From assembly GCF_029846175.1 (NCBI RefSeq), contig NZ_JARWAC010000015.1, forward strand, positions 62,001-126,000: a stretch of DNA of 64,000 nt, read 5' to 3'. Position 1 is the stretch's first letter; each line of letters starts with the position of its first letter. A program made the translations under genes and the position numbers. This DNA is from Sphaerisporangium sp. TRM90804. GTDB taxonomy: Bacteria > Actinomycetota > Actinomycetes > Streptosporangiales > Streptosporangiaceae. Shown here one piece after another: positions 1 through 62,353 of the stretch. A model generated the notes under the pieces. That model was not told where the DNA came from. It saw nothing but the letters and a program-made list of their open reading frames with translations, and did no database searches.

Positions 1-451
1 TGTCGGGGTTCGGGGCGATCACCTCGACCTGGCCGGGCAGCACGAGCCGCTGCCGGACCACCCGGTAGACGAACCACCCCGTGCGGGTCTCCGCCACGAT
101 GACGTCGCCCTTGCGCAGCCGGTCGACGTCCCAGAACACCGACGAGATGCGGTGACCGGCGATGCCCACGTTGCCGATCTCCCCCGGACGCGCGGTCTTC
201 TTGTAGTGCCCCGGCCCCCTGCGCAGGTCGGCCTGGCGCACGCCCTCGACGACCGCCCACTTCTTGTCCAGCCGCGGGACGTACATGCGGGCCATGGGCT
301 GGCCCGGCACCGGGCTGTCGGCGGCCGCCCCCCGGTTCCAGCGCTTGTCCAGTTCGTCGGCCATCTGGTGCTGCTCGGCGTCGATCCGCCACGCCTTGCC
401 GTACACCGCGTAGGCCGCGAACAGCAGCACCACCACGCCGATGGTGACCAT
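1..451 (-). CDS. Class E sortase (5' part only; C-terminus outside the window)
   Basis: A membrane-bound transpeptidase that would cut LAxTG-type signals and attach surface proteins to the cell wall. The visible part has a membrane segment right at the N-terminus (VVVLLFAAYAVYG), an extracytoplasmic linker, and the sortase barrel with the catalytic His in GNVGIAGHRIS. The catalytic Cys and Arg lie beyond base 1. The in-frame start is ATG at 451, preceded by an in-frame TGA. Homologues begin with a basic cytoplasmic tail ending in a motif like GAGEL; here the equivalent residues RQAGEL are encoded just before the ATG, so the N-terminus is probably frameshifted (see 451-504). The upstream gene encodes an LAVTG-bearing protein, the expected substrate. 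Confidence 0.85.
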   Translation of the reverse strand, partial: MVTIGVVVLLFAAYAVYGKAWRIDAEQHQMADELDKRWNRGAAADSPVPGQPMARMYVPRLDKKWAVVEGVRQADLRRGPGHYKKTARPGEIGNVGIAGHRISSVFWDVDRLRKGDVIVAETRTGWFVYRVVRQRLVLPGQVEVIAPNPD

Positions 452-504
452 CAGCTCGCCGGCCTGTCGTGCGAGGGCGCGTCACGCTCGACGGTGTCCG
501 TCAC
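451..504 (-). other. 17-codon ORF linking htaA-like gene to sortase; probable frameshifted sortase N-terminus
   Basis: A GTG at 504 overlaps the stop of the surface-protein gene (GTGA) and opens a 17-residue reading frame, whose TGA overlaps the sortase ATG (TGATG). The peptide begins [11 protein letters not shown], like the usual acidic start of sortase E proteins, but loses register before the membrane segment. A one-base indel between about 455 and 480 would fuse it to RQAGEL and the membrane helix. It could be a real mutation, a sequence error, or a short coupling ORF. Confidence 0.45.
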
Positions 505-2309
505 TGGTCGTCGTCCGGCAGGTAGGCGGTCCGCCGGGAGGCGCGCAGGGTGATCCCTCCCCCGACGATGAGCCCGATGCCCACGGTCATCAGCGGGATG
601 ACGTACCCGTCACCGGTCACGGCCAGCTCTTCCGTGCTGACCTGCGTGGGCGCCGTGGTGAACTCCGTGACGGTCCGCGTCGGCCGGGGTGAGGAGCTGG
701 TGGGGGTCTGCGACGGCGTGGAGCTGGAGGAGTCGGTGGGCGTCGGCGTGGGTGTCGGGGTGGGGGTGGTGGGGCAGTCCGTCGGGGTGCTGGAGGGACT
801 CGGCGTCGGCGTCGCGCTGGGCGTCGGCGTGGCGCTGGGCGTCGGGGTGGGCGTCGGCGTCGCGCTGGGGGTGGGCGTCGCGCTGGGGGTGGGCGTCGCG
901 CTGGGGGTGGGCGTCGCGCTGGGGGTGGGCGTCGGCGTGGGGGTCGGGCACGTGACGGTCGGCGTCGGCGTCGGCGTGATGGGGGGAGTGGGAGTGGGGC
1001 ACTCGGGGGACGGGGTCGGGGTCGGGGTCCCCGAGTCGCTCGGCGTGACCGGAGGCGTCGGGGTTCCCGGGCCGCTGGGAGTCACGGACGGGGTCGGGGT
1101 CCCCGGGACGCTGGGCGTCACAGAAGGGGTCGGGGTTCCCGGGCCGCTCGGCGTGGCGGAGGGGGTCGGGGTCACGGACTCGCTGGGCCTGCCCCGGCCG
1201 AACGGCTGCACGGACGGGGATGTGCTGCCCGACGGCGTCGGGCTGCCCGAGCCCGAGGGCGTCACCGAGGGGGACGCGGAACCCGTGGGACACGGGTCCG
1301 AGGAGGGCGTGGTGCTTCCCGAAGGGCTGGGGGGCGGCCGGTAGGTGAGGCTGACCGTGAGCGGCGTGAACTCGAAGCCGGCGCCCAGCACTTCGCGCAA
1401 CAGCGTGTGCGCGGCGATGGTGGCCTGCGCGGGCACGGCGGTCCACGTCAGTTTCGTCCCCTCGACGACGGCGGCGTCCGTGTCGACGACGAGCGTGGCG
1501 AGCTGGGTGAGCGGAGAGGGGCTCGCGGTCGAGGAGGGACCGTCCGACGGAGGCGCCGGGGTGACGGTGCCGGTGTCCTCGGGCTCGGGGGCCGCGAGCG
1601 GCATGTTCTGCGATCCGGCGGCGGGCTCGTCCCGCGGTGCGGCGCCGTCGGACGGGAGGTCCCCCGGCGCGTCCTCGGCCGGCGGCGGGCCGTCGGCTCC
1701 GACCGGCGGCGCGTCATCGAGCGGGCCGTCCTCAGGCGCGGGCGGGCCGTCGCCGGGCGGCGTCTCCTCGGGTGCGGGAGTCTCGGGTGCGGGGGTCTCG
1801 GGGGCGGGGGTCTCGGGGGCGGGGGTCTCGGACGGGTCCACGGGCGGGTCCGGCGGGATCGTCAGGGCGCGGAGCGCCGAGGACGCGCCGGCCAGCTCGA
1901 CCACCGGCCCCGCGATGACCACCCGCGCGTCGCCCCTGGTCAGGGTGACGCTGCCGTCGTAGAACACGGTGCCCGTTCCCGCGGCGGGATCATAGGAGCC
2001 CCCGGTGGCCGGGAAGCGGATCGCGCCGCCGTCGCGTACGGCTCCCCCGCCGAGCTGGACTTCGACGTCGTCCTCGGCCTGGCCGTCCGGCGTGCCGGAC
2101 TGCTCCTCGGAGGGCGGGTCCAGCGCGTCGCTCAGCGTCCAGACCAGCGAGCCCCCGGTGACCTCGCGCGCGGACGCCGGGGCGAGCGGCGCCGAGGCGA
2201 GCGCGCCGACGGTGGCCACCCCTCCGGCGACCATCTGCACGACGCCGAAGGCGATCAGCCATCCCACGCGCCGCCGCGCCGGCTGCCGCCGGCCGATGGA
2301 CGAACTCAT
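501..2309 (-). CDS. HtaA-domain cell-wall-anchored surface protein with Pro/Thr/Ser stalk
   Basis: A 602-residue exported protein, start ATG 2309 chosen for the AGGATGG ribosome site just upstream. Residues 1-49 form a signal peptide (basic [11 protein letters not shown], hydrophobic core, AxA-type cleavage near SAREV). An HtaA-like domain ([12 protein letters not shown] onward, about 50-185) follows; in corynebacteria HtaA domains bind haem, but haem binding here is only inference. Residues about 200-545 are low-complexity Pro/Thr/Ser repeats, a wall-spanning stalk. The C-terminus is a sorting signal: LAVTG at residue 562, a hydrophobic helix, then RASRR. LAxTG is the class E sortase motif, and the sortase gene lies directly downstream. 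Confidence 0.85.
859..930. repeat. 18-bp perfect tandem repeat, four copies, inside the stalk
   Basis: The 18-mer GTCGCGCTGGGGGTGGGC repeats four times without mismatch at 859-876, 877-894, 895-912 and 913-930. On the minus strand it encodes a six-residue PTPSAT unit of the stalk. Less perfect versions extend from roughly 690 to 1250. Copy number is likely to vary by slippage, changing stalk length. Confidence 0.85.
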
Positions 2310-2688
2310 CGAGAAACCATCCTGTGGGGGAACCGGCACGTCACCGGCCTGTTCACCGAAGCCATAGGACACCGGCCGGGCGAGACCGCCCTGTGCCACA
2401 GGCCACGGAACAGTTATCGAATCCTGCTTTGGCGGGCCTATCACTGCCATAGTCGCGCACAAGCGGGGGTTATGGGCGGGAATACGGTTTTTCGCCCACA
2501 AAAACCACCTGCCGTGGTCGCCCGAAAACCCGGCGTACCGGCAAGCGCGCGCGGCACCGCGCCCGAACCCGGCCGAAGGCGCCGGATTTCCCCGCCAAAC
2601 CAAGCCAGAGCGCTATCGTCGGCGAAGCATTATCATGAAACAACCTGATCACGCTGTGTTTCACCATGTACGCGGAAGAGGTGGGGCA
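2310..2688. other. Divergent intergenic region between surface protein and kinase
   Basis: About 380 bases that must hold promoters for both directions. It is less GC-rich than its surroundings in the middle (2410-2510). No convincing -35/-10 pair, operator or terminator was recognised. Long ORFs that cross it on both strands are antisense extensions of real genes. Confidence 0.4.
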
Positions 2689-5007
2689 TTGTCCGGTCCT
2701 CCCCCGCGTGACCTGGAGAAACTCGACGAGATCGGCGGCTACCGGCTGATCCGCCGCCTCGGCGGAGGGGGCCAGGGGGTCGTCTATCTCGGGCGATCGC
2801 CGTCCGGCGGCGACGTGGCCGTGAAGGTCCTGCACGCCTGGATGGCCGACGACGCCGACGCCCGCAGGCGGTTCCTGCGCGAGGTGGACGTCGCCCGCAG
2901 GGTCGCGCCCTTCTGCACCGCCAGGGTGCTCGACATGGGGCTGCAGGACGACCGGCCCTACATCGTCAGCGAGTACATCCCCGGAGTCTCGCTGGACGTC
3001 CTGGTCTCCAGGGACGGCCCGCGCGCGGGCGGCGGCCTCGACCGGCTCGCCGTCGCGACGATCAGCGCGCTCGCCGCGATCCACCGAGCGGGAATCGTGC
3101 ACCGCGACTTCAAGCCGAGCAACGTCATCCTCGGCCCCGAGGGGCCGGTGGTCATCGACTTCGGCATCTCGCGCGCGCTCGACCACACCGCCGTCACCCG
3201 CACCGGAGCCGTCGGGACCCCGCCCTACATGGCGCCCGAGCAGTTCACCACCGAGTCGAGCGGCCAGAGCGCGGACGTCTTCAGCTGGGCGTGCACGATG
3301 GTCTACGCGGCCACCGGGCACCGCGCGTTCCCCGGCGACACCCTCCCCGTGGTGGTCAGCGCGATCCTGCACCGCGAGCCCGACCTGTCGGGCGTCCCCG
3401 CCCCGTTGCGCCCCCTGCTGGCGGCCTGCCTCGCCAAGGACCCGGCGAACCGCCCCGCGACCGCCGAGATCTTCCGTACCCTCACCGGCGAGGGCCTGCC
3501 CGCCGCCCCGGCCACCCTTCAGCTCCCCCCGCCGTCCCTCTCGCGGACGCCCCCTCCCGGCACCACGCGCCCGAGCGGCGCGGGGCCGCGGGCCACGCCC
3601 GGGCACGCCGGCACCGGGCACCCGGCCGCACCTGAGCGCCCCGCCACGCCGGCACGTCCGGCCACCGCCCCGGGGGGTCGCGGTGCGCCGCCTCCGGACG
3701 CCGGGGCTCCCACCTCCCCCACCTCCCCCGGATCCGCCGCGCCCCCGCCGGGCCCGGACGCCGCCGGTGCTCCCACGCGGCCCGGGACGCCCGCCGGCTC
3801 GGGCGTCCCGGAGGCCGCGACCGTCGCCTCCCGGCCGGCGGGTCCCCGCCGCCGGATCCCGCGCCGCGCGCTGGTGGCGGCCGGCGCGGGCGCGCTCGCC
3901 GTGGCGGGCCTGCTGGCGTTCCAGTTCCTGCCCGGCGAGACCCCGCGGGGCTCCTCGTCGCGCGTCGGCACGACGCTCTCCTCGCCGGTCTCGCCCGCCC
4001 CGTCCGGTACCGGCGGCACCGAGGCCGCGCCGGCCGCCACGTTCGCCGCCCCGGTGTACAAGCTGACCGAACACAGCAATGACATCCGGTCCATCGCGGT
4101 CGGCGACGCGAACGGCACGCCGGTGGCGGTCACCGGCGGCGACGACACCACCGTGCGCGTCTTCGACCTCGTCAAGGGCGAGCAGCTCGGTGACGCCATC
4201 ACCCGGCACACCGGCTGGGTAAGGTCGATCGGCTACGGCGAGCTGAACGGCAGGCCCATCGCGGTCACCGGCAGCGACGACAACACCGTGCGCGTCTGGG
4301 ACGTACTCAAGGGCGAGCAGATCGGCGCCCCGCTCACCGGGCACACCGACGACGTCAAGGCCGTGGCGGTGGGCCGGCTGGACGGCAGGGCCGTCGCCAT
4401 CACCGGCGGCGCCGACCGCACCGTCCGCCTCTGGGACATCGCCACGGGAAACCCGCTGCGCGCGCCGATGACCGGGCACTCCGCCACCGTGTGGGCGATC
4501 GCCTTCGGCGAGGTCGACCGCCGTCCGGTCGCCGTGACCGGCGGCGACGACAAGACCGTGCGGGTCTGGGACCTCACCACCGGAAAGGAGACCGGCCGCC
4601 TCACCGGCCACAAGGGCTGGGTGCGGGCCATCGCGTTCGGCCAGGTCGACGGCACCCCGGTGGCCGTCACCGGCGGCGCCGACAAGACCGTCCGCGTCTT
4701 CGACCTGCTCACCCGCCGGCAGCTCGGCGCCACGATGACCGGGCACGACGGGGTGATCTGGTCGGTGGCGTTCGGCGAGGTGAACGGCCTCCCCGTCGCC
4801 GTCTCCGGCAGCGACGACCGGACCGTCCGCGCCTGGGACCTGTCCGCTCACAAGCAGATCGGCGCGCCCTTCACCGGCCACACCGACTGTGTCTGGGCCG
4901 TGGCCGTCGGCACCAGGAACGGCACCCCGGTGGCCCTCAGCGGCAGCCGCGACGAGACCGTGCGCGTCTGGAGCCTCGCCCCGCCCTTCCCGCCGGAACG
5001 CGGCTGA
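2689..5007 (+). CDS. Transmembrane Ser/Thr protein kinase with C-terminal WD40 propeller
   Basis: A 772-residue Hanks-type kinase if the TTG at 2689 is used, chosen because GAGGTGGGG precedes it; an in-frame ATG at 2635 has no ribosome site. The kinase domain shows the glycine loop GGGGQGVVYLG, VKVL lysine, HRDFKPSN catalytic loop and DFG, all intact. A long Pro/Ala-rich linker leads to one membrane helix (ALVAAGAGALAVAGLLAF). Outside the membrane there are seven WD40-like repeats of the pattern AVTGGDDKTVRVWDL, enough for one closed seven-bladed propeller. The propeller probably senses or docks a partner. It lies just upstream of the Fxs genes on the same strand, but a functional link is inference. 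Confidence 0.92.
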   Translation: MSGPPPRDLEKLDEIGGYRLIRRLGGGGQGVVYLGRSPSGGDVAVKVLHAWMADDADARRRFLREVDVARRVAPFCTARVLDMGLQDDRPYIVSEYIPGVSLDVLVSRDGPRAGGGLDRLAVATISALAAIHRAGIVHRDFKPSNVILGPEGPVVIDFGISRALDHTAVTRTGAVGTPPYMAPEQFTTESSGQSADVFSWACTMVYAATGHRAFPGDTLPVVVSAILHREPDLSGVPAPLRPLLAACLAKDPANRPATAEIFRTLTGEGLPAAPATLQLPPPSLSRTPPPGTTRPSGAGPRATPGHAGTGHPAAPERPATPARPATAPGGRGAPPPDAGAPTSPTSPGSAAPPPGPDAAGAPTRPGTPAGSGVPEAATVASRPAGPRRRIPRRALVAAGAGALAVAGLLAFQFLPGETPRGSSSRVGTTLSSPVSPAPSGTGGTEAAPAATFAAPVYKLTEHSNDIRSIAVGDANGTPVAVTGGDDTTVRVFDLVKGEQLGDAITRHTGWVRSIGYGELNGRPIAVTGSDDNTVRVWDVLKGEQIGAPLTGHTDDVKAVAVGRLDGRAVAITGGADRTVRLWDIATGNPLRAPMTGHSATVWAIAFGEVDRRPVAVTGGDDKTVRVWDLTTGKETGRLTGHKGWVRAIAFGQVDGTPVAVTGGADKTVRVFDLLTRRQLGATMTGHDGVIWSVAFGEVNGLPVAVSGSDDRTVRAWDLSAHKQIGAPFTGHTDCVWAVAVGTRNGTPVALSGSRDETVRVWSLAPPFPPERG

Positions 5008-5166
5008 CCGTCGAGCCCGGCGCCCCGGAAAACGGCGGGGACACCGCGGCGGCGCGTGACGGGTGACCGGCCGCGCATATGGCGCGGGGCGTCGTTGCGC
5101 CGGCACTTTCCGGCCATCACACTAAAGACGGTGTCTCAGCCATTCCGATGGTACGGGAGATCAGCG

Positions 5167-6375
5167 ATGCGCCAGAACGGAAACGAATGGCCCGAAACGC
5201 TGGACGTGCGGGCCCTGATCTCCAGCGGGTGGCGGCCCGCGCCATTCCGGGAATACGTTCTGAAGATCAACAGCAGGTGCGACCTCGCCTGCGACTACTG
5301 CTACGTCTACACCATGGCCGACCAGAGCTGGCGCGGCCAGCCGACGCGAATGTCGGCCGAGACCGTCGGCCATGTCGTGCGAAGGATCGCCGAGCACGCG
5401 TCGGCGCACCGGCTCGATTCCGTGCACCTCATTCTGCACGGCGGCGAACCGTTGCTGGCCGGTCGCGAACTGCTGTCGTTAATAGCCGGCCGGGCGCGAT
5501 CGGCCCTGCGGGGGATTACCGCCGTCCGCATATCCCTGCAGACCAATGGAGTGTCGCTGGACGCCGGAAACCTCCGCCTGCTCGACGAGCTCGACATACA
5601 GGTCGCGGTGAGCCTCGACGGCGACGTGACCGCCCACGACCGGCATCGCCGCAGGCCGAACGGGCAGGGAAGCCACGCGTCGGTGACCGCTGCCCTGCGG
5701 CGGCTGTCGTCCGCGCCCTACCGCCGGCTGTTCCGCGGGCTGCTGTGCACCGTCGACCTGGCCAACGACCCCGTCGACGCCTACCAGGCCCTGTTGAAAT
5801 TCGACCCGCCCGCGATCGATTTTCTCCTGCCGCACGGTAACTGGACGGAACCGCCTCCCGGAATGGTTCCCGGCTCAGGTGCGACGCCTTATGCCGACTG
5901 GCTCGTGCGAGCGTTCGACCGCTGGTACGACACCCCCGTCCGCGAAGTGCGGGTGCGCCTCTTCGAGGAAGTCATTCACCTGCTGCTCGACGGAACGTCC
6001 CCCATGGAAGGGCTCGGCCTCGAACCGGTCGCCATTCTCGTCGTCGAGACCGACGGCGGCGTCCAGCAGTCGGATTTCCTCAAATCGGCGTATGCCGGCG
6101 CCGCCCACACCGGGCTGCACGTCGCGTCCGACAGTTTCGACGAGGCGCTGGTGCGGCCCGCTTTCGCCGCCCGTCAAATCGGCGCCGCCGCCCTGGCCGC
6201 GACCTGCCGGTCATGTGATATCCACCGCGTCTGCGGCGCGGGACTGTACGCGCACCGATATCGGGCCGGGCACGGTTTCGCCAATCCGTCCGTTTACTGC
6301 GCCGACCTCTATCGGTTCATCACCCACGTCCGCGGGCGCCTGGCCGCCGACATCGCCGGAATGCGGGCGAGGTGA
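5167..6375 (+). CDS. fxsB: FxsB-type radical SAM/SPASM RiPP maturase
   Basis: A 402-residue radical SAM enzyme; ATG 5167 has GGGAG upstream. The cluster-binding CxxxCxxC motif is CDLACDYCY near residue 36, followed by the GGEP motif (LHGGEPL) that contacts SAM. The C-terminal Cys-rich region (CRSCDIHRVCGAG and a later Cys in SVYCADLY) is a SPASM-like site for auxiliary iron-sulphur clusters. FxsB enzymes modify the C-terminus of small FxsA peptides; related enzymes form cyclophane crosslinks between an aromatic ring and a side chain two residues on. The stop overlaps the GTG of the next gene, so the two are translationally coupled. The likely substrate is the small ORF at 10468. Confidence 0.92.
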   Translation: MRQNGNEWPETLDVRALISSGWRPAPFREYVLKINSRCDLACDYCYVYTMADQSWRGQPTRMSAETVGHVVRRIAEHASAHRLDSVHLILHGGEPLLAGRELLSLIAGRARSALRGITAVRISLQTNGVSLDAGNLRLLDELDIQVAVSLDGDVTAHDRHRRRPNGQGSHASVTAALRRLSSAPYRRLFRGLLCTVDLANDPVDAYQALLKFDPPAIDFLLPHGNWTEPPPGMVPGSGATPYADWLVRAFDRWYDTPVREVRVRLFEEVIHLLLDGTSPMEGLGLEPVAILVVETDGGVQQSDFLKSAYAGAAHTGLHVASDSFDEALVRPAFAARQIGAAALAATCRSCDIHRVCGAGLYAHRYRAGHGFANPSVYCADLYRFITHVRGRLAADIAGMRAR

Positions 6376-7718
6376 GCGGGCGCCCGGGACGGCTGCTGAT
6401 GCCTCCGGAGATGTTCGAAGCCCTGGCGCGCGGAGGCGGCGGCGCGGCGGCCGGCCGTTGGCTCGCCGCGGCCGAGAAGGGCAAGCACCTCCTGCTCGTG
6501 CGCGCGGCCGTCGAGGCCGTCACCGCCGGCGGCCACCCCTCGACCGGCCCGGTCCGGGGGGCGTACCGGCTGCTCACCGACCTGCAGGGCAGGGCGCCCC
6601 GGACGGTGGACGACGTGCTGGCCCACCCCGCGACCGGAGGGTGGGCCCTCGACACGGTGCGGCGCATGGCGCGAGGCGAGCCGGCCGCGCCAGAGCGTCT
6701 GGCCTGCGTCGCCGCGGCGGTGGCGATCCGGGAGCGGATCCCGCGCACGGTGGCCGTCCCCATGGAACGACGCGGCGGCCTCGGCACCCTCATGCTGCCG
6801 TCGGTCGGGCGCGCCTTCTTCGACGCGCCGGAGCCGGGGTCACCGCCGGGCGACGCGACGTGCCTGGTGCGGGTCCACGCGACCGGCGCCGAGATCGTCG
6901 GCCCGCGCTCGACGGTCACGGTGCCGCGGGACCACACCCGGGACGGCGACGCCTGGCAGGGCATGCGACGGCTGTCGGCGACCGCGGAGGGCGTGCCCTT
7001 CCAGGTGCTCGTGGACGATCTCGACGAGCACCGCTTCCCACCGGAGGCACCGCTCGCGCCACGCCTGGACGGCGCGGAGGCCGCCCACTGGCAGGCGGTC
7101 TTCCAGGAGGCGTGGAAGCTGCTCGTGCTGCGTCACCGGGCCGTCGCCGAGGAGGTGCGCACCATGACCACGGTGCTCACGCCCCTGCGCGGCGGGGCCG
7201 CGGGCGGCTCCAGCGCCACCTCGCGGGAGACGTTCGGCTGCGTCGCGACCTCGCGCCCGCCGGACGCCACGGCGCTGGCGCTCACGTTCGCGCACGAGAT
7301 CCAGCACGCCAAGCTCGCCGCGATCCTCGACCTCGTGGACCTCATCGAGCCGCCGGCCCCCGGCGCCGAGACGCTGTTCTACGCGCCCTGGCGGGAGGAC
7401 CCCCGCCCGATCGGCGGGCTCCTGCACGGCGCGTACGCCCACCTCGGCGTGGCAGCGTTCTGGCGGCGTCAGCGCCACCACGACGACGAGCCCGGCCTGG
7501 CGTCCCACGTCGAGTTCACCCGCTGGCGGGACGCCACGGCGCAGACCGTGGAGGTCCTCGCCGGGAGCGACCGGTTCAACCGGCTGGGGCTCGGCTTCCT
7601 GGCCGGCATGCGGTCGGCGCTGGGCGAATGGCGCGACGACGCCGTCCCCGCCGCCGCCGTGGCCTCGGCCCGCGCGGCGGCCGAGACCCACCGGGCGCGC
7701 TGGAGCGACGCCCGCTAG
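6372..7718 (+). CDS. HEXXH-motif protein of the FxsB system
   Basis: A 448-residue protein of the HEXXH family that accompanies FxsB in actinobacteria. GTG 6372 overlaps the fxsB stop (GTGA). The zinc-peptidase-like motif is HEIQH in the segment FAHEIQHAKLAAILDL, near residue 304. There is no signal peptide or membrane segment, so it should be cytosolic. Whether it is a peptidase acting on FxsA or a second modifying enzyme is not known. It ends 18 bases from the convergent fxsT stop with no clear terminator between them. Confidence 0.85.
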   Translation: MSGRPGRLLMPPEMFEALARGGGGAAAGRWLAAAEKGKHLLLVRAAVEAVTAGGHPSTGPVRGAYRLLTDLQGRAPRTVDDVLAHPATGGWALDTVRRMARGEPAAPERLACVAAAVAIRERIPRTVAVPMERRGGLGTLMLPSVGRAFFDAPEPGSPPGDATCLVRVHATGAEIVGPRSTVTVPRDHTRDGDAWQGMRRLSATAEGVPFQVLVDDLDEHRFPPEAPLAPRLDGAEAAHWQAVFQEAWKLLVLRHRAVAEEVRTMTTVLTPLRGGAAGGSSATSRETFGCVATSRPPDATALALTFAHEIQHAKLAAILDLVDLIEPPAPGAETLFYAPWREDPRPIGGLLHGAYAHLGVAAFWRRQRHHDDEPGLASHVEFTRWRDATAQTVEVLAGSDRFNRLGLGFLAGMRSALGEWRDDAVPAAAVASARAAAETHRARWSDAR

Positions 7719-7736
7719 ACCGGCCGGCGGCGTTCG

Positions 7737-10274
7737 TCAGATGGGCGGCGGGTCGAAGTCGAAGGGCAGCCGCCGCCCCTCCCGTGCCGCCACCGCCCGC
7801 GGGTGGCCGGGGCCGAGAGTACGCGCGTACTCCTCCAGCGTCTCGGCGAGGAGCCGGGCGCTCTCGGCCTCCAGCCCCAGGCTCGCGAGGTCGCTCGCGA
7901 GGTTCGCGGCGCAGGCCAGCGTGAGGGGATGCAGGCGGCCGAGCACCGACCGCATGCGGTCGAGGGTCTCCTGCCCCCGTAGACGCGCGAGGTCGGTCTC
8001 CCCCAGGGCGGCGAGGTCGCTCGCCAGGTTGGCGCCGCACATCAGGGAGTAGTGGTGGTCGGGCCCCAGCAGGGAGGTCAGCTTGGCGAGGGTCGCCTCG
8101 TCGGCCTCCCGCGCGCCCTGGGGATCGCCGGACAGACGCCGCAGCAGGGCCACGTTCACCCGGCATCCCAGCGTGTAGGGGTGGTCGGCGCCGAAGACCC
8201 GCGGGTAGACGTCCACCGTCTCGGTGGCGAGGCTCATCGCCTCCTCCAGCCGGCCCGCCTCGCGCAGCGCGTTGACGAGGGCGACGGCCGCCGCCAGCGT
8301 GTCGGGATGGGCGTGGCCGCGCACCCGCTCATGGGCGGCGAGCACCTCGGCGGCGAGGGCGACGGCCTCCTCGGTGCCGCCCTCCACCCGACGCTGGGCG
8401 ATGGCGACGTCCTTGAGCATCAGGAGCGTCGAAGGGTGGTCGGCCCCCATCACGTTGACCGACGAGCCGTGACAGTCCTCGCTGAGTATCCGGCCGTCCT
8501 CGTAGTCACCGCACAGGCGGATGGCACGGGCCAGGTTGTTCTTCACGATGAGCACCAGCGGATGCGCGTCGCTTCCCTGGATGTCGCGCTCGCCCTGGTA
8601 GACCTTGAGCCCGAGTTCCCTGGCCTCCTCGAAGCGGCTGTTCAGCGCCAGGTCGATCGCGAGGTTGTTCTCGGCGCGCAGCGTGTTGTAGTGCCCCTCG
8701 CCCAGGAACTCGCGCAGCCGCCGCACGCAGTCGTCGTCGAGGCTGAGCGCGCCGCGGAAGTCGCCGACGGCGCGCAGATCGGCGCCGTGGCTGTTGGTGA
8801 GCCGCAGGGTCTCGGTGCTCTCGAAGCCGAACAGCGCCTCGGCGTCGGCCACGGCCCGCCTGTTGACGTCCGACGCCTCGGCGTACCGGCCGAGGTCGCG
8901 CAGGACGACGCCGAGGTGGCGCCGCATCGCGGCGAGGTCGGCCGGCGCGGTGGCGGGGTCGGCCGACCAGTGTTCCAGCGCCTGCTGGGCGTACCGCAGG
9001 GCGGTGGGCGCGTCCCCGGCGATGTACAGGTAGCGGACGAAGCTTCTGATCATGAACCGGGTCTCGCCCACAGCGCACCGGACGGCCTCGGAGGACTCCA
9101 CGTGCGGCAGTAGCGCGGCGAAGCGCGGCCAGGTGACGGCGCTGTCGGGATCCCTCGGGGTGGCCGCCGCCAGCAGACGGTGTGCGGCCTCCTGGAATTC
9201 CTCGCCCTCCTCGCCGGTGAGCTCGTCACGCGCCAGCGCCTGCACCAGGCGGTGGACCTGCAGCGTGCGCCCCGGCATGTCGGCGCTGACGAGGGCGTAC
9301 CTGCCGAGCGTGCTGACGGCCTTGGTGAACATCAGGGGGTCGCGCAGGATGGGGGCGAGCGGGTCGGCGACGGCGGAGCGCCCCTCGCTGAGCACCTCGC
9401 GGGGGATCGGCTGGGGGCCGAAGTGGGCGCAGCAGCTCAGCAGGACGACGGCCTCGGGGAAGACCTCCCGCAGGTGCGTCACCGAGAGCCGGAACGTCGC
9501 CGTGACCGAGAAGTGGTTCGGCGGCTTGCCCTCGTCCATGAGCCGGGTGGTCTGGGTCTTCAGCAGGCTGAGGTACTCCTCGGGCGGCATGCCGCTCTGG
9601 GAGATCAGCGCGCCCGCCTGCTCCAGCGCAAGCGGCAGGTCGCCGAGGGCCTCGGCGAGCGCCTGCGCCTCCGACTCGGTGATCCCGCGGACGCGGCGGT
9701 GGAGGAAGTCGATGCTCTCGTGGCGCCGGAAGACGTCGACGTTGAGGGTGTTGACCACCCCCTCCCACGCCTGGTCGCGCGAGGTGATCAGCGTGTCGCC
9801 CGGGCCGTCGGGCAGGAGGTCGAGCAGGGACTCGGGGTCTCCGGCGTTGTCGAAGACCAGGAGCCACCGCTCGTACTTCTCGCCGCGGCGCAGGGCGTCG
9901 AGCACCGCGACGGCGGTCTCCCGCACCCCGACGGCCGCCGCGTCCGGCAGGTCGAGATGGGGTGCCAGGGCGGCGAGCATGCCGGGCACGAGATGGGGCT
10001 GGTCGGCGAGGATCCACCACACGAGGTCGTAGTCGTCGCGGTAGCGGTGCGCGTACTCGGCGGCGAGGTGCGTCTTGCCCACGCCGCTGAGCCCCTGCAG
10101 CGCGTGCAGCAGGATTCGGCGCTCGCCGCGGCTTACCTGGTTTCTCAGGTGGGCGAGCGATTCGACGCGTCCGGTGAAGTTCTTGTCGCGTTTCGGCACC
10201 GAACCCCAGACCCTGGGCGCCCGAGGCCGGTCGTTCGATCCACCGAGGCTCACGATATCCCCTGCCGTCTGCAT
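7737..10274 (-). CDS. fxsT: FxsT-type NB-ARC/TPR protein of the FxSxx system
   Basis: An 845-residue STAND-class ATPase. After a short N-terminus with the family motif VWGSVPKRDKNFTGR comes an NB-ARC-like domain with a P-loop (LSGVGKTHLA), Walker B region (WLLVFDNAGDPESLL) and a Thr-Ser-Arg sensor (TLITSRD). Residues from about 410 to the end are tetratricopeptide repeats of about 42 residues (for example TLGCRVNVALLRRLSGDPQG). Such proteins act as nucleotide-controlled switches with the TPRs as ligand sensor. It is convergent with fxsB-HEXXH and divergent from fxsA, so the FxSxx genes are in two transcription units. Confidence 0.9.
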   Translation of the reverse strand: MQTAGDIVSLGGSNDRPRAPRVWGSVPKRDKNFTGRVESLAHLRNQVSRGERRILLHALQGLSGVGKTHLAAEYAHRYRDDYDLVWWILADQPHLVPGMLAALAPHLDLPDAAAVGVRETAVAVLDALRRGEKYERWLLVFDNAGDPESLLDLLPDGPGDTLITSRDQAWEGVVNTLNVDVFRRHESIDFLHRRVRGITESEAQALAEALGDLPLALEQAGALISQSGMPPEEYLSLLKTQTTRLMDEGKPPNHFSVTATFRLSVTHLREVFPEAVVLLSCCAHFGPQPIPREVLSEGRSAVADPLAPILRDPLMFTKAVSTLGRYALVSADMPGRTLQVHRLVQALARDELTGEEGEEFQEAAHRLLAAATPRDPDSAVTWPRFAALLPHVESSEAVRCAVGETRFMIRSFVRYLYIAGDAPTALRYAQQALEHWSADPATAPADLAAMRRHLGVVLRDLGRYAEASDVNRRAVADAEALFGFESTETLRLTNSHGADLRAVGDFRGALSLDDDCVRRLREFLGEGHYNTLRAENNLAIDLALNSRFEEARELGLKVYQGERDIQGSDAHPLVLIVKNNLARAIRLCGDYEDGRILSEDCHGSSVNVMGADHPSTLLMLKDVAIAQRRVEGGTEEAVALAAEVLAAHERVRGHAHPDTLAAAVALVNALREAGRLEEAMSLATETVDVYPRVFGADHPYTLGCRVNVALLRRLSGDPQGAREADEATLAKLTSLLGPDHHYSLMCGANLASDLAALGETDLARLRGQETLDRMRSVLGRLHPLTLACAANLASDLASLGLEAESARLLAETLEEYARTLGPGHPRAVAAREGRRLPFDFDPPPI

Positions 10275-10467
10275 ATTCGGCTTTCAATCCCTCATCCTAG
10301 ACAATCGACAACGGCGCGGCGGGCGTCGAGTCAGGCCGGATCGATGTCCGCCCACCGAAGGCGACATAAGGGATAAAGCATAGAAATACTCCTGCGAAGT
10401 CGGCGAGATGATGGCCACCGGCCCGTTGATCAGGGATGATGGGGCTGGCGACGCGCCAGGGGGGATA

Positions 10468-10638
10468 ATGCCCGACTTCTCAGATCCGGTGGAAACGCAG
10501 ATGATCGACCTTACCGGGCTGTCGTTGACCGACCTCGAAGCGCTCGGCCCGACGAGCCTGCATCACGCGCTCGCGCGCATCATGCGGCGCGCCGAGGACA
10601 CCTCGGATCCCGTCCTGGCCTTTCTGGCCAGCCTCTGA
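10468..10638 (+). CDS. fxsA: FxsA-like RiPP precursor with variant C-terminus (FLASL)
   Basis: A 56-residue peptide. ATG 10468 is chosen over ATG 10408 because AGGGGGG stands just upstream and it gives the family's usual length. The leader has the FxsA signature TQMIDLTGLSLTDLEAL and ALARIMRRAED. The family ends Phe-x-Ser-x-x at the carboxyl end, but this one ends F52-L-A-S-L, with Ala where Ser is expected and Ser one place later. FxsB would be expected to act on this tail. The gene is divergent from fxsT and in the same direction as the nSTAND gene about 140 bases on. Confidence 0.8.
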   Translation: MPDFSDPVETQMIDLTGLSLTDLEALGPTSLHHALARIMRRAEDTSDPVLAFLASL

Positions 10639-10778
10639 CGGCTCCCGGGGCACGCGATCATGAACGAGCCGCCGAAAGCCGACACCGCGCCCCCGGGCCT
10701 GCCCCGCTCCACCTGTGCAAAGCGCCCCGGCTCGGCGGCCCGGCGGGCTAGCATGCTGATCGTGTTCCGGGCCCGGTC

Positions 10779-12497
10779 GTGCGTCGTCCCGCACCCGTGC
10801 CCGCGGCCGTACACCCCGCCGACGAGCCCTCCGTGAGCGAGGGGGGAGCGGCTGGGCGCCCCTACCCAGGAACTCGCGCGTTCGAGACGTCGGAGCGCCA
10901 TCTCTTCTTCGGCCGCGACGAAATATCCCTCCGTGTCGCCGATCTGTGGCGCACCCATAGGGTGACCATTTTGTACGGGCCGCCGGGCGTCGGCAAAACC
11001 TCACTCGTGAACGCGGGCGCGATCCCGATAATCGCCGATCGGAACATCGAGCATTTCCCCGCGGGGCGCGCCCTGCCCACCCGAGTTTTCCCCGCGGCAG
11101 CGCTGCCCGAGCACAATTCCCACGTCCTGTCGCTGCTGTGGTCGTGGGATCCCGCCGGTGACCCGCTCGCGCTTTCCCGCCTGACCATCTCCGAGTTTCT
11201 GGCCCGCCACCGTCGCGCGCAGCCGTCGCGCTCCCCCCTCCTCCTCTGCCTCGACCAGGCGGAGGATCTCTACCGCGGATCGCCCGCCCCGCGCGCCGGC
11301 CGCATGCCGCTCCTCGGCCAGCTCCTCCAGGCGCTGGAGGCCGACCCCCAGGTGAACCTCCTGGTGTCCGTCCAGGACGACCGGCTCGCCGATCTCCTGC
11401 GCGACATGGGGCTGGACCGGCGGCACGACGTCGCCTCTCAGCACCTGCCCGCGCTGGGCAGGGCGGCCGCGGTCGAGGCCGTGCGGCGCCCGCTGAAGGG
11501 CACCCGCCTGTCGCTCAGCCCCGGCACCGCCGAGGCCCTGGTCGACGAGCTGCTCTCCGGGTGGGTCACCGACGATCTCGGCCGCAGGCGGCCGGTGCGC
11601 GAGAGCACCGTCCATCCCCTGCACCTGCAGGCGGTCTGCGCGTGGCTGTGGCAGCACCTGCCCGGCGACCTCACCTCCGTCACCGTGCAGGACGCCCACC
11701 GCATCGGCAGCGTCGACCTCTGGCTCGCCACGGCGGCGGTCGGCAGCGCCGTGCGCGGGGTGGCCGACTATCTCAACATGGACGCCGGCCGGCTCTGCGG
11801 CTGGATCCAGGACACCTTCGTCACCCCCGAGGGCGCCCGCCGCCCGGTCGGCGAGGGGCCGCAGGCGACCGCGGGCATGCCGAACAACGTCCTTCGCACT
11901 CTGCACGACCACCGGCTGCTCAAGGCCGAGACCCGCTCCGGCTCCCGGTGGTTCGAGCTGCCGAACGACCGCGTGGTCCCCCCGCTGCGGCTCGCCGTGG
12001 AGCTGCTCGCCGCCCCCTCGGCCGGGCAGCACGCCCCCGCGCCCGCCGACCGCCTGCGCGCCGCGACGAACGCGCTGGCCGACGGCGAGCCCGATCTCGC
12101 CTCCTGGCACGCCCGCCAGGTGCTGCGGCAGGGCCCCGGCCGCAGTCTGCGAGCCCAGGCGGAGGCCGAGACCCTCCTGGGCGACATCTCCTACAGCCGC
12201 GACGAGGTCTCCCTGGCCACCGACCACTATCTGCGGGGCGCGTCGCTCCTGGAGGCCCTGAGGGACACGGCGGCGGCGGGCGCCCTGCTGGCGGCGGTGG
12301 GCCGCCTGCACCTGCTGACCGGCGACACCGCGACCGCGGTGGTGATGCTGAGATCGGCCGTGTCCCGGCTGCCGGGGAACTCCAGCGTCGCCGGTGAGCT
12401 CATGCGGGCGCTCTCCGCGCCCGGCAGGACGAACGCCCGGACGGCGAGGTCACCCGCGGCGGAGAACACCCGCACCCGGCCGCAGGGCGGCGGCTGA
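10779..12497 (+). CDS. nSTAND1-type ATPase with C-terminal TPR-like region
   Basis: A 572-residue protein, or 554 if GTG 10833 is the start; neither has a strong ribosome site. The entry motif YPGTRAFETSERHLFFGRDE is typical of the nSTAND1 domain, followed by a P-loop (YGPPGVGKTSLVNAG) and a Walker B region (LLLCLDQAEDLY). A winged-helix-like segment follows and the last 130 residues (TNALADGEPDLASWHARQV onward) look like TPRs. Such STAND proteins serve as signal-controlled scaffolds, often in conflict or regulatory systems. A TAGCAT box at 10749 could be a -10 element. Its position beside fxsA replaces the TIR-like FxsC found in many FxSxx loci, but I cannot see that gene anywhere here. Confidence 0.82.
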   Translation: MRRPAPVPAAVHPADEPSVSEGGAAGRPYPGTRAFETSERHLFFGRDEISLRVADLWRTHRVTILYGPPGVGKTSLVNAGAIPIIADRNIEHFPAGRALPTRVFPAAALPEHNSHVLSLLWSWDPAGDPLALSRLTISEFLARHRRAQPSRSPLLLCLDQAEDLYRGSPAPRAGRMPLLGQLLQALEADPQVNLLVSVQDDRLADLLRDMGLDRRHDVASQHLPALGRAAAVEAVRRPLKGTRLSLSPGTAEALVDELLSGWVTDDLGRRRPVRESTVHPLHLQAVCAWLWQHLPGDLTSVTVQDAHRIGSVDLWLATAAVGSAVRGVADYLNMDAGRLCGWIQDTFVTPEGARRPVGEGPQATAGMPNNVLRTLHDHRLLKAETRSGSRWFELPNDRVVPPLRLAVELLAAPSAGQHAPAPADRLRAATNALADGEPDLASWHARQVLRQGPGRSLRAQAEAETLLGDISYSRDEVSLATDHYLRGASLLEALRDTAAAGALLAAVGRLHLLTGDTATAVVMLRSAVSRLPGNSSVAGELMRALSAPGRTNARTARSPAAENTRTRPQGGG

Positions 12498-12599: not shown

Positions 12600-13946
12600 T
12601 CAGGGCGTTCCGCCGGCGTCCCTGCGTACCCGCCCGTCCGCGCCGCGCCGCCACCCCGCGGGCAGCGGCGGGTCCGCCTCCACGATCGCGCCGTCCAGGT
12701 TGAGACCCGCCACCTTCACCCGGGTCAGGTCGATCCCGGACAGGTCGGCGCCGGAGAGCACGGCGCCGGAGAGGTTGGCGCGAAGAAGGGTCGCGCCGCG
12801 CAGCCGGGCGCCCGTGAGGTCGGCGCCGGCCACGACGGCGTCGGTGAGGTCGGCCCCCTCCAGGCCCGCGTCGCGGCACACGGCCCTCGACAGGTTGGCC
12901 CTGGTCAGGTCGGCGCCCGCCAGCTCCGTCCCGACGAGCTTCGCGGCCGTGAGCCCCGCCCTGCCCAGCTTCGCCCCGGTGAGATCGCACTCCTCCAGCT
13001 CCGCGCCGTCGAGCACCGCCTCGGTCATGACCGCCCCGCGCAGGCTCACCCGGCACAGCCGGGCCCGCGGGAGCACGGCCTTCACCAGGGTCGCCTCGTC
13101 CCACCGCCCGTCGGTGAGAACGGCTTCGGAGAGCGTGGCGCCGGTGAGGTCGGCGCCGAGCAGGTCGCATTCGGTCAGGTGCGCCCCGCGCAGGTTCGCC
13201 TCCCCCGCGACGACGCCGGCCAGCCGCCCCCTGACCAGCACCGCCTCACCGAGATCGGCCTGGTACAGGTCGGCGCCGGTGAGCCGGGCGTCGTCGAGGG
13301 CCAGCCCGAGCAGCCTGGCCCTCCTGAGGTTGACCCTGCCGCCGTCCGCGCCGGTGTCGCGCCGGGCGATCACCGAGACGGCCGCGCGCGCCTCGCCCGC
13401 CGGGTCGTCCCCCAGCCGCTCCGGCTCCATGCGCGAACGACGCTGCACGAAGGCGGCGAGCACCGCCACGATGGCGGGCTGGTCGCGCGGCGAGTCCACC
13501 GCCACGCGTTCCAGGGCGTAGACGCCGCCCAGCCGCACGTCGACGTTGGACGACCCGAGCTGGTCGATCGCCCGGGTGAAGCGCTCGGTGACCTGGCCCT
13601 GCTCGCTCAGCTGGAAGGTGCCCCGGGTGAGTTCGAGCGCGGCCCGGTTGAGGTCGCCCTGGCGCCGCGCCAGTGTGAAGTTCGCCGCGGTGAAGACGAA
13701 CGCGAACGCGGCCAGCAGCCACGTGCCGGCCTGGATGAACTGCCCGCGGGCGTCCTTGCGGGCCTGGATCAGCGCCTTGGTGCGCGCCGTCCCGGTGAGC
13801 CCGCGCGAGTCGTGCACGGCGACGGCGTCCGCCAGGGGCCAGTACGCCGCCACGGTGGCCCCGACCAGCACCGTGAGGGCCAGGACGCCGAGGAGCGTCC
13901 AGCCGGCCCTCCGCCACAGTGTCTTGCGACGCGCTTTTGCGTGCAT
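12600..13946 (-). CDS. Membrane-anchored pentapeptide-repeat protein
   Basis: A 448-residue protein. Two hydrophobic segments lie near the N-terminus (TLLGVLALTVLVGATVAAYW and a second in WLLAAFAFVFTAANF), separated by about 50 residues. From about residue 225 to 430 there are continuous A(D/N)LxG pentapeptide repeats (for example ADLTGARLRGATLLRANLSG), which fold as a right-handed quadrilateral helix. A region before it (DVRLGGVYALERVA) matches the segment usual in bacterial pentapeptide membrane proteins. Function is unknown; DNA-mimic activity as in Qnr proteins should not be assumed for this membrane-bound architecture. Confidence 0.88.
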   Translation of the reverse strand: MHAKARRKTLWRRAGWTLLGVLALTVLVGATVAAYWPLADAVAVHDSRGLTGTARTKALIQARKDARGQFIQAGTWLLAAFAFVFTAANFTLARRQGDLNRAALELTRGTFQLSEQGQVTERFTRAIDQLGSSNVDVRLGGVYALERVAVDSPRDQPAIVAVLAAFVQRRSRMEPERLGDDPAGEARAAVSVIARRDTGADGGRVNLRRARLLGLALDDARLTGADLYQADLGEAVLVRGRLAGVVAGEANLRGAHLTECDLLGADLTGATLSEAVLTDGRWDEATLVKAVLPRARLCRVSLRGAVMTEAVLDGAELEECDLTGAKLGRAGLTAAKLVGTELAGADLTRANLSRAVCRDAGLEGADLTDAVVAGADLTGARLRGATLLRANLSGAVLSGADLSGIDLTRVKVAGLNLDGAIVEADPPLPAGWRRGADGRVRRDAGGTP

Positions 13947-18386: not shown

Positions 18387-18398
18387 ATGATGCCGTGG

Positions 18399-18472
18399 TG
18401 CGCCGCCAGGGACTCGAACCCCGGACCCGCTGATTAAGAGTCAGCTGCTCTAACCAACTGAGCTAGCGGCGC
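18399..18472 (-). tRNA. tRNA-Lys (anticodon CTT)
   Basis: Cloverleaf read on the minus strand: acceptor GCGCCGC/GCGGCGC, D-arm with GCTCAGTTGGTTAGAGC, anticodon loop CTCTTAA giving anticodon CTT for Lys codon AAG, T-arm GGGGTTCGAACCCC, discriminator A. CCA is encoded at 18398-18396. The 74-base gene is identical to the one at 45267-45340. Confidence 0.97.
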
Positions 18473-45244: not shown

Positions 45245-45266
45245 TTGTCATCGGCCTTGGCCGTGG

Positions 45267-45340
45267 TGCGCCGCCAGGGACTCGAACCCCGGACCCGCTG
45301 ATTAAGAGTCAGCTGCTCTAACCAACTGAGCTAGCGGCGC
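45267..45340 (-). tRNA. tRNA-Lys (anticodon CTT), second copy
   Basis: Same 74-base sequence as the gene at 18399-18472, with the anticodon loop CTCTTAA and encoded CCA at 45266-45264. The flanks differ, so this is a second gene and not a segmental duplication of the neighbourhood. Confidence 0.97.
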
Positions 45341-46401: not shown

Positions 46402-46560
46402 GGGTCTCCTTTCCGTACGCGTCTACCGGGTTAGCTGACGGGTTCGGACTAAGGAGTCGCCCTACCGCTTTCGCGGATTCACCCCGATGAGATTGGGTTC
46501 CCGGTTCCCGCCGAGCGTGTCGCGCTCTTGGGGACTCGACGCTGGGTGGCGGCTTCCGGC
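46402..46560 (-). ncRNA. c-di-AMP riboswitch (ydaO-yuaA class)
   Basis: On the minus strand the conserved blocks of the class appear in order: GGCGGGAACCGGGAACCCAA, then GGGGTGAATCCGCG, AGGGCGACTCCTTAGTCCGAA, and CCGAACCCGTCAGCTAACCC with GGTAG and a GGAAAGGAG end. These are the ligand-binding cores of the ydaO aptamer. Binding of c-di-AMP normally lowers expression. It precedes a secreted cell-wall-type protein, the usual target in actinobacteria. Boundaries are good to about 10-20 bases. Confidence 0.88.
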
Positions 46561-61930: not shown

Positions 61931-62353
61931 TCATTTGGAACCCCTCCCGTCAGCCGGAGCATTCGGGCCACTGGTGGCGATCACCCGCCATGAGGCGATC
62001 TCGGCGTACCCGGCCGGATGAGCGATGGCGTCCTGGGCGGCCAGCGCCATCACCAGAGCAGGCGCATCCCCCGCGGCGAGAAACGGGAGCAGACCCATCG
62101 CGAGCTGGCCATCGGTCAGTTCGGCGTGCCGGGTCGCCGTCCAGCCCTGCGGGACACCATGGTCATCGACCAGGCGGACGACGAGCCATGCCGGGTAAGT
62201 CTGGTGGATCGCTTTGATCTGACGTTCGACCAACTCGGCCAGTTCGGGAATCACCGGGCGCTGACGAGGGCTCGGCGACCGGCCGGTGGTCTTCGGGAAG
62301 TACCCGCCCACCGAGATGCTCGCGCTCGGCGAGAAGCCGTACGGGTCGGTCAC
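61931..62353 (-). CDS. Unknown 140-residue protein
   Basis: GTG 62353 overlaps the previous stop. No family recognised. The middle (VERQIKAIHQTYPAWLVVRL, VPQGWTATRHAELTDGQL) looks globular; the N-terminus is Ser/Pro-rich. GC content and third-position bias are lower than elsewhere, consistent with an accessory region. Confidence 0.65.
   Translation of the reverse strand: MTDPYGFSPSASISVGGYFPKTTGRSPSPRQRPVIPELAELVERQIKAIHQTYPAWLVVRLVDDHGVPQGWTATRHAELTDGQLAMGLLPFLAAGDAPALVMALAAQDAIAHPAGYAEIASWRVIATSGPNAPADGRGSK

Follow-up and report, generated by a model that had tools for sequence, protein, structure and literature searches.

An nSTAND1 ATPase gene joined to the Fxs peptide-maturation genes of Sphaerisporangium sp. 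TRM90804: a candidate peptide-coupled conflict system

Contig NZ_JARWAC010000015.1 of Sphaerisporangium sp. TRM90804 (Streptosporangiaceae) was analysed over a stretch of 64,000 nucleotides (nt), positions 62,001 to 126,000 of the forward strand, which is called the window and numbered from its first letter. At 5056-12497 the window contains a locus of the Fxs (FxSxx-COOH) type, in which a radical S-adenosylmethionine (SAM)/SPASM maturase gene (fxsB), an HExxH gene, a STAND ATPase gene (fxsT), a precursor peptide gene (fxsA) and a second, nSTAND1-type ATPase gene stand behind the gene of a WD40 kinase. All of these genes had been named in an earlier account of the same DNA made from its letters and open reading frames (ORFs), referred to here as the sequence-only reading. 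Comparison of neighbourhoods in related genomes shows that fxsB with the HExxH gene, fxsT, fxsA and nSTAND1, often together with a SIR2 gene, constitute one module; the kinase is outside it.

Genes of the Fxs locus

The coordinates, strands and profile scores of the genes are collected in Table 1; fxsB, the HExxH gene, fxsT and nSTAND1 exceed the curated cut-offs, and fxsA falls just short of its own. The HExxH gene and the end of fxsB share 4 nt, and the true start of fxsB is probably 3′ of the annotated position, since the TIGR04269 match opens at residue 64. The motif HEIQH is visible in the translation of the HExxH protein, whose solved relatives are 22nu and ChlH (8s5f). The sequence-only reading had described this protein as zinc-peptidase-like, a term to be dropped because its family, TIGR04267, is now defined as alpha-ketoglutarate (alphaKG)-dependent peptide beta-hydroxylases. 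The two enzymes belong to the same families as the fused enzymes of FxsBH/ChlBH type that make triceptides; the window differs in that FxsB and the HExxH protein are encoded by separate genes and the FxsA peptide ends in F-L-A-S-L.

The FxsT protein matches NB-ARC with 21 bits, under the Pfam cut-off of 23.5, and matches DUF7779 and TPR over their cut-offs; it carries no N-terminal effector domain. Its TPR tail matches the TPRs of kinesin light chain, which bind short peptides. The nSTAND1 protein has an intact Walker A motif (GPPGVGKTS) and a C end about 100 residues shorter than in five relatives from the genus; its matched length is below 600 in 16 of the 106 instances introduced below, so short copies occur elsewhere too. 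The sequence-only reading had noted the absence of FxsC, and models of FxsC indeed gave zero matches among the eight window proteins scanned; the window locus thus has neither of the two features that mark TIR-type Fxs loci (FxsC and/or a TIR-fused FxsT). No Pfam match to VMAP ternary components (vWA, MoxR) was obtained with 20 selected ORFs of the window between 501 and 24278, of which three are probably not genes, and a scan of the cassette with Rfam gave no match.

Table 1. Features of the window: the Fxs locus, the kinase and other features
Feature	Position	Strand	Basis
fxsB, radical SAM/SPASM cyclophane-forming maturase family	5056-6375	+	TIGR04269, 473.4 bits (cut-off 370)
HExxH gene, alphaKG-HExxH-type peptide beta-hydroxylase family	6372-7718	+	TIGR04267, 158 bits (cut-off 40)
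fxsT, NB-ARC-like STAND ATPase with TPR tail	7737-10274	-	NF040586, 904.6 bits (cut-off 300)
fxsA, precursor peptide of 76 amino acids, end ...VLAFLASL	10408-10638	+	TIGR04268, 27.6 bits (cut-off 28)
nSTAND1 ATPase with short TPR-like tail	10779-12497	+	PF20703, 102.1 bits (cut-off 27.1)
Ser/Thr kinase with Pro-rich linker, transmembrane-like stretch and WD40 propeller	2635-5007	+	Pkinase, 124 bits; five WD40 stretches
Pentapeptide-repeat protein	12600-13946	-	
Surface-type protein	501-2603	-	weak HtaA match
Sortase-like frame	1-520		
tRNA-Lys(CTT), identical pair	18396-18472 and 45264-45340	same strand	
Cyclic di-AMP riboswitch	46404-46548	-	RF00379, 76 bits (gathering 38)

Association of nSTAND1 with the fxs genes

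The nSTAND1 gene was searched for with an alignment of the six copies of the genus (query A1), without any condition on fxs genes, and was found at E≤1e-60 in at least 115 of 250 genomes of the family; up to four first-look candidates were scored per genome, and this count and that of the matches (at least 150) are lower bounds. Outside the genus, the matches listed include 144 nSTAND1 genes, 62 with and 82 without an FxsB listed within 15 kb. Neighbourhoods were read for 80 of the 82, for 20 of the 62 (hand-picked from every second) and for the six genus copies. The sample therefore leans against adjacency, because 80 of its members were chosen for having no FxsB listed nearby. After local nSTAND1 matches below 300 bits had been dropped and overlapping loci merged, 110 rows became 106 unique instances from 81 genomes: the six of the genus and 100 from outside it, of which 98 have fxsT and 59 have SIR2.

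The fxsT gene lies within 2 kb of nSTAND1 in 99 of the 106 instances, within 3.5 kb in 103 and within 5 kb in 104, a number that stays the same up to 9 kb; the two instances that lack it are contig ends with only 1 and 440 nt of upstream sequence. In 102 instances fxsT is upstream of nSTAND1 and divergent from it. FxsB is encoded within 12 kb of nSTAND1 in 86 instances and the HExxH protein in 88, and one or the other is present in 89 of the 95 instances that have at least 9 kb of upstream sequence. The nearest fxsB is on the same strand and downstream of nSTAND1 in seven instances, in six of them within about 130 nt; in the seventh (L166) it is 1.6 kb off, between two neighbouring cassettes. 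The six with fxsB directly 3′ of nSTAND1 indicate that the partners stay joined despite a changed gene order. The HExxH motif is intact in 88 of 88 copies and the CxxxCxxC motif of FxsB in all 86 copies checked. Within the genus, FxsB occurs in 11 of 11 genomes and nSTAND1 (E≤1e-10) in five of the 11, as six copies that all adjoin FxsT.

The grouping of these genes, the kinase excepted, is far beyond chance. The sequence-only reading would have regarded it as chance if related genomes separated the nSTAND gene freely from the fxs genes; the neighbourhoods show no such free separation, and with fxsT so consistently within 5 kb, the idea that nSTAND1 and the fxs genes are unrelated and happen to stand side by side has practically nothing to recommend it. 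As a separate observation, several genomes of the family have two cassettes of this type near each other, in many cases head to head (L084, L085, L087, L091-L093 and L165-L167); they possibly arose by duplication with divergence of specificity.

A small FxsA-like ORF is found between FxsT and nSTAND1, the only interval in which candidates were sought, in 93 of the 106 instances, the window included. When the FxsA profile was run over 13,269 small ORFs of these loci, 106 matched, 93 of them within FxsT-nSTAND1 intervals; of the 13 outside, eight are the same genes in overlapping loci (by sequence), one is a further FxsA-like ORF (L146), three are divergent and one is apparently false. Seventy candidates end four residues past a Phe, with Ile or Leu as the last residue in 60 and with Ser (36), Asn (17), Ala (13), Gln (3) or Glu (1) at position i+2. 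A literal FxSxx end is present in 36 of the 93 candidates. The tail of the window peptide is not of this form and reads F-L-A-S-L; an F-x-A-x-x end is shared by 12 other candidates. The idea that the window peptide is degenerate was ruled out, as F-x-A is common among the relatives: with Ala at i+2 in 13 of 70 candidates, the F-L-A-S-L end is ordinary. According to parts of PMC11002830, the bond made by related maturases runs from Phe to the i+2 residue (from Phe to Ser for MscB); by analogy, the FxsB of the window would link Phe to Ala.

The kinase gene does not share in this conservation. It ends 48 nt before the fxsB ORF on the same strand, and its kinase domain matches the PD-T4-6 models of PADLOC with up to 192 bits, a match with no link to fxs. 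These two points speak for the wider set that the sequence-only reading had drawn, in which the kinase, the fxs genes and the nSTAND gene form one regulated module, and the neighbourhoods make such a set highly improbable. A kinase stands directly before fxsB in one of the 86 instances with fxsB, that of the window, and four of the 86 have one on the strand of fxsB no more than 6 kb ahead of it; within 12 kb of nSTAND1, a kinase match is present in nine and a WD40 match in four of the 106 instances, both counting the window and both sought by one-sequence profiles, which distant forms may escape. The closest DNA relatives of the kinase in the genus, matching its kinase and WD40 parts (G001, G002, G004 and G010), do not share a contig with FxsB, except in G004, where about 0.94 Mb separates the two, and no fxs genes were seen in the stretches of 16-20 kb around them. 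In G004 about 7.4 kb, free of matches to window genes, separate the relative from orthologues of the genes that the window has at about 18.5-19.7 kb. The kinase is a positional neighbour; the membership proposed for it falls, and the caution that its link was only positional proved right, as no recurrent pairing is seen. The start formerly given for it, 2689, falls inside the ORF of Table 1, and its transmembrane-like stretch is hydrophobic as judged by eye from the translation.

SIR2 and TIR partners, distribution and neighbouring genes

In 62 of the 106 instances nSTAND1 is immediately preceded, on its own strand, by a SIR2_2 gene, and in 61 the two profile matches are 30 nt or less apart. 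Two more have a SIR2 that is not adjacent: in G007 it precedes fxsB, and in G073 it is 3 kb upstream and goes with a second copy of nSTAND1. Among the 62 adjacent copies the TTNYD motif is present in 61, an HLHG-type motif in 61 and G-x-G in 56. The SIR2 proteins of four loci match the ThsA models of PADLOC with 58 to 82 bits, and the best PDB match of one is 7uxt ('USG protein'), others being ThsA, an 'NAD-dependent deacetylase' and KomC. In this they resemble ThsA of Thoeris and other SIR2 NADase effectors, from which they differ by their coupling to nSTAND1 and to a core that matures a peptide.

The window locus is one of the 44 without an adjacent SIR2. In a quick nSTAND1 tree of 106 rows, built without a mixture model, it falls with a support of 98 into a clade of 32 that lack SIR2, and the state of SIR2 (scored present in 64 rows, including the two with a non-adjacent gene) changes five times over the tree. 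A recent loss of SIR2 from the window was considered and is ruled out by this position, which also indicates that the locus is no recent wreck.

The FxsT proteins linked to nSTAND1 differ from those of other loci. The open frame upstream of the FxsT model has 0-198 amino acids in 104 nSTAND1-linked copies and 380-622 in 12 copies of the genus without nSTAND1, and a single branch with a support of 99 splits the 12 from the 104. The 12 compared are all from one genus, and two of them were scanned for domains: L067 has ParA-like and TIR domains and a separate FxsC beside it, and L069 has a weak TIR match only. FxsC is present at six genus loci without nSTAND1, and near nSTAND1 in none of the 110 rows, searched with a one-sequence profile that distant forms may escape. 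Most simply read, these patterns suggest one peptide-maturing core for which TIR-type parts on the one hand and nSTAND1, alone or with SIR2, on the other may be alternative outputs. A third type of fxs locus in the genus (L069, L070, L074, L075 and similar) combines an FxsT of about 1200 amino acids with a neighbouring gene for about 340-350; in L069, the sole locus of this type scanned, that neighbour matches no family.

A phylum sample of 395 genomes other than the window's gave no nSTAND1 gene at E≤1e-60, with three candidates scored per genome; FxsB was found in just 10 of the 395, so few Fxs loci underlie the absence of nSTAND1 beyond the family. In a sample of the order it was found in at least 130 of 249 genomes, and among the matches listed every genome is of the window's family. 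A plasmid collection gave a single match, to Nonomuraea gerenzanensis (Streptosporangiaceae in its record), with 41% identity in four places, in a region whose record has no annotated features. A search for related loci returned none with nSTAND1 as a single protein and 15 distant loci with it as an alignment.

We know of no function that has been shown for an Fxs peptide. No nSTAND1 or SIR2 form of Fxs was recognised among the papers that the literature searches listed, from a body of text outside which most subscription papers lie. According to parts of Kaur et al. 2020 (PMC7159879), FxSxx peptide-processing genes occur with a TIR AP-ATPase in conflict systems, and a peptide toxin or signal was proposed. 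Those systems have in common with the window an FxSxx peptide, an HExxH protein, a radical SAM/SPASM enzyme and an AP-ATPase with TPRs (PMC7159879, in part). As portions of the same paper describe it, their AP-ATPase has an N-terminal TIR beside FxSxx peptides and a MinD/ParA-like domain in standalone systems, whereas the window FxsT has no such N-terminal region and is accompanied by a separate nSTAND1, often with SIR2 in relatives. The words nSTAND and SIR2 are absent from the main text of PMC7159879, its figures aside. The nSTAND1 ATPases of conflict systems covered in sections of Kaur et al. 2021 (PMC8195603) are of the same NTPase family (PF20703), but the present clade is tied to fxsT, and where SIR2 is present the effector has a gene of its own. 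The nSTAND1-type locus thus appears to be a known Fxs system in a new form, with a mechanism that is predicted.

Several other features were noted around these loci. The pentapeptide-repeat gene of the window is convergent with nSTAND1, and besides the window copy one weak match (49 bits) to it was found in the 120 loci searched. At the left end of the window, the surface-type protein has long Thr-Pro repeats and a C-terminal hydrophobic segment and adjoins the sortase-like frame; both labels are our own reading. The two identical tRNA-Lys genes are 26.9 kb apart and hardly share flanks, and a cyclic di-AMP riboswitch lies on the minus strand (Table 1). In a related locus a CLC chloride channel gene (L129:8493-10004) lies between fxsT and SIR2, and genes of similar size are found there in L122 and L133.

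Proposed mechanism and alternatives

The window locus is rather likely to represent an nSTAND1 subtype of the Fxs peptide-coupled conflict system. The conflict-type output is plausible because 62 of the 106 instances have an adjacent ThsA-like SIR2; of the sequence-only interpretation, this output and the module of fxs genes with nSTAND1 endure, and the kinase has to be left out. In the predicted pathway, FxsB would cross-link the Phe near the C terminus of FxsA to the i+2 residue (Ala in the window), after which the cross-linked product would be hydroxylated by the HExxH enzyme. FxsT, the tail of which resembles peptide-binding TPRs, would read the matured C-terminal peptide, and FxsT and nSTAND1 may act as a relay of two STAND proteins. 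In clades that bear SIR2, the output might be the destruction of NAD+, leading to cell suicide or growth arrest upon infection or other damage. The mature peptide could be a ligand or a licence that reports an intact cell; since its maturation should need SAM, Fe-S and alphaKG, it may act as a licence. In the SIR2-less clade of the window the output would come from nSTAND1 itself, from the peptide or from an effector gene at another site.

A more specific version of this pathway, which can be offered only tentatively, is an immune relay like that of NLR proteins, in which a ribosomal peptide with a radical-SAM cyclophane and a hydroxyl group would license the path from FxsT through nSTAND1 to the SIR2 NADase. 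FxsT would sense the loss or the presence of the mature peptide and hand over to its dedicated nSTAND1; TIR, in the form of FxsC and the N terminus of FxsT, would be interchangeable with this output, and the clade of the window would have a third.

Several findings weigh against the conflict-system interpretation. SIR2 is missing from the window and from every member of its nSTAND1 clade of 32, so the window cannot be credited with a suicide output. The PADLOC models offer no persuasive defence match for the Fxs and nSTAND1 proteins of the window: FxsB matches viperin models with 34 bits at most and nSTAND1 matches reach 18 bits, and the HExxH protein and FxsT have none. Five nSTAND1 copies, all without SIR2 (L104, L105, L130, L153 and L182), have the Lys of Walker A replaced, which speaks against ATP hydrolysis in them; they are possible pseudo-ATPases. 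A second FxsT at the nSTAND1 locus L064 has an upstream open frame of 153 amino acids, and in G002:C78 fxsB stands apart, with fxsT about 19 kb and nSTAND1 about 23 kb away. Lastly, a gene of a major facilitator superfamily (MFS) cluster lies 800 nt or less downstream of nSTAND1 in 43 of the 106 instances, on the same strand in 15 of the 43; examples are L143:3700-4965, L084:14299-15780 and L063:16748-18085, and the label comes from three scanned members of the cluster, all of which are MFS proteins.

The MFS gene may encode an exporter or simply be a frequent neighbour. As an exporter it would fit the export of a product, as in a natural-product cluster for a ribosomally synthesized and post-translationally modified peptide (RiPP), where the cyclophane peptide would leave the cell to act as an antibiotic or signal, with the STAND proteins in the role of regulators or immunity factors; the families of triceptide-type maturases and alphaKG-HExxH enzymes do make RiPPs, according to parts of PMC11002830 and PMC12636437. 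The MFS gene is also commoner without adjacent SIR2 (25 of 44) than with it (18 of 62; Fisher p 0.005). However, a tree-aware test gave this apparent exchange of SIR2 for MFS no support (5 independent pairs, median p 1), and it was rejected as evidence; the window cassette has no transporter gene, the orientation of the MFS gene is shared with nSTAND1 in only a minority of cases, and SIR2 genes are, in our judgement, unexpected in export clusters. A RiPP cluster of this kind is accordingly considered unlikely. Somewhat less probable again is a developmental or stress switch of actinobacterial multicellular growth, in which the peptide and the two STAND proteins would time programmed cell death rather than serve in anti-phage defence. 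The occurrence of nSTAND1 at E≤1e-60 in one family only, among the matches listed for the phylum and the order samples, would suit such a switch, but a conflict system is a better match than core development for its patchy presence in five of the 11 genus genomes and for its multiple copies, up to four per genome with at most four candidates scored.

For the conflict-system interpretation, the fixed partnership of the Fxs genes with an immune-type ATPase, joined in 62 of 106 instances by SIR2, provides a testable reading in which a modified peptide controls a cell-suicide switch. If this is true, RiPP chemistry would be joined to bacterial innate immunity, and the apparent alternation of TIR with nSTAND1 and SIR2 would be a natural comparison of the outputs of one sensor.

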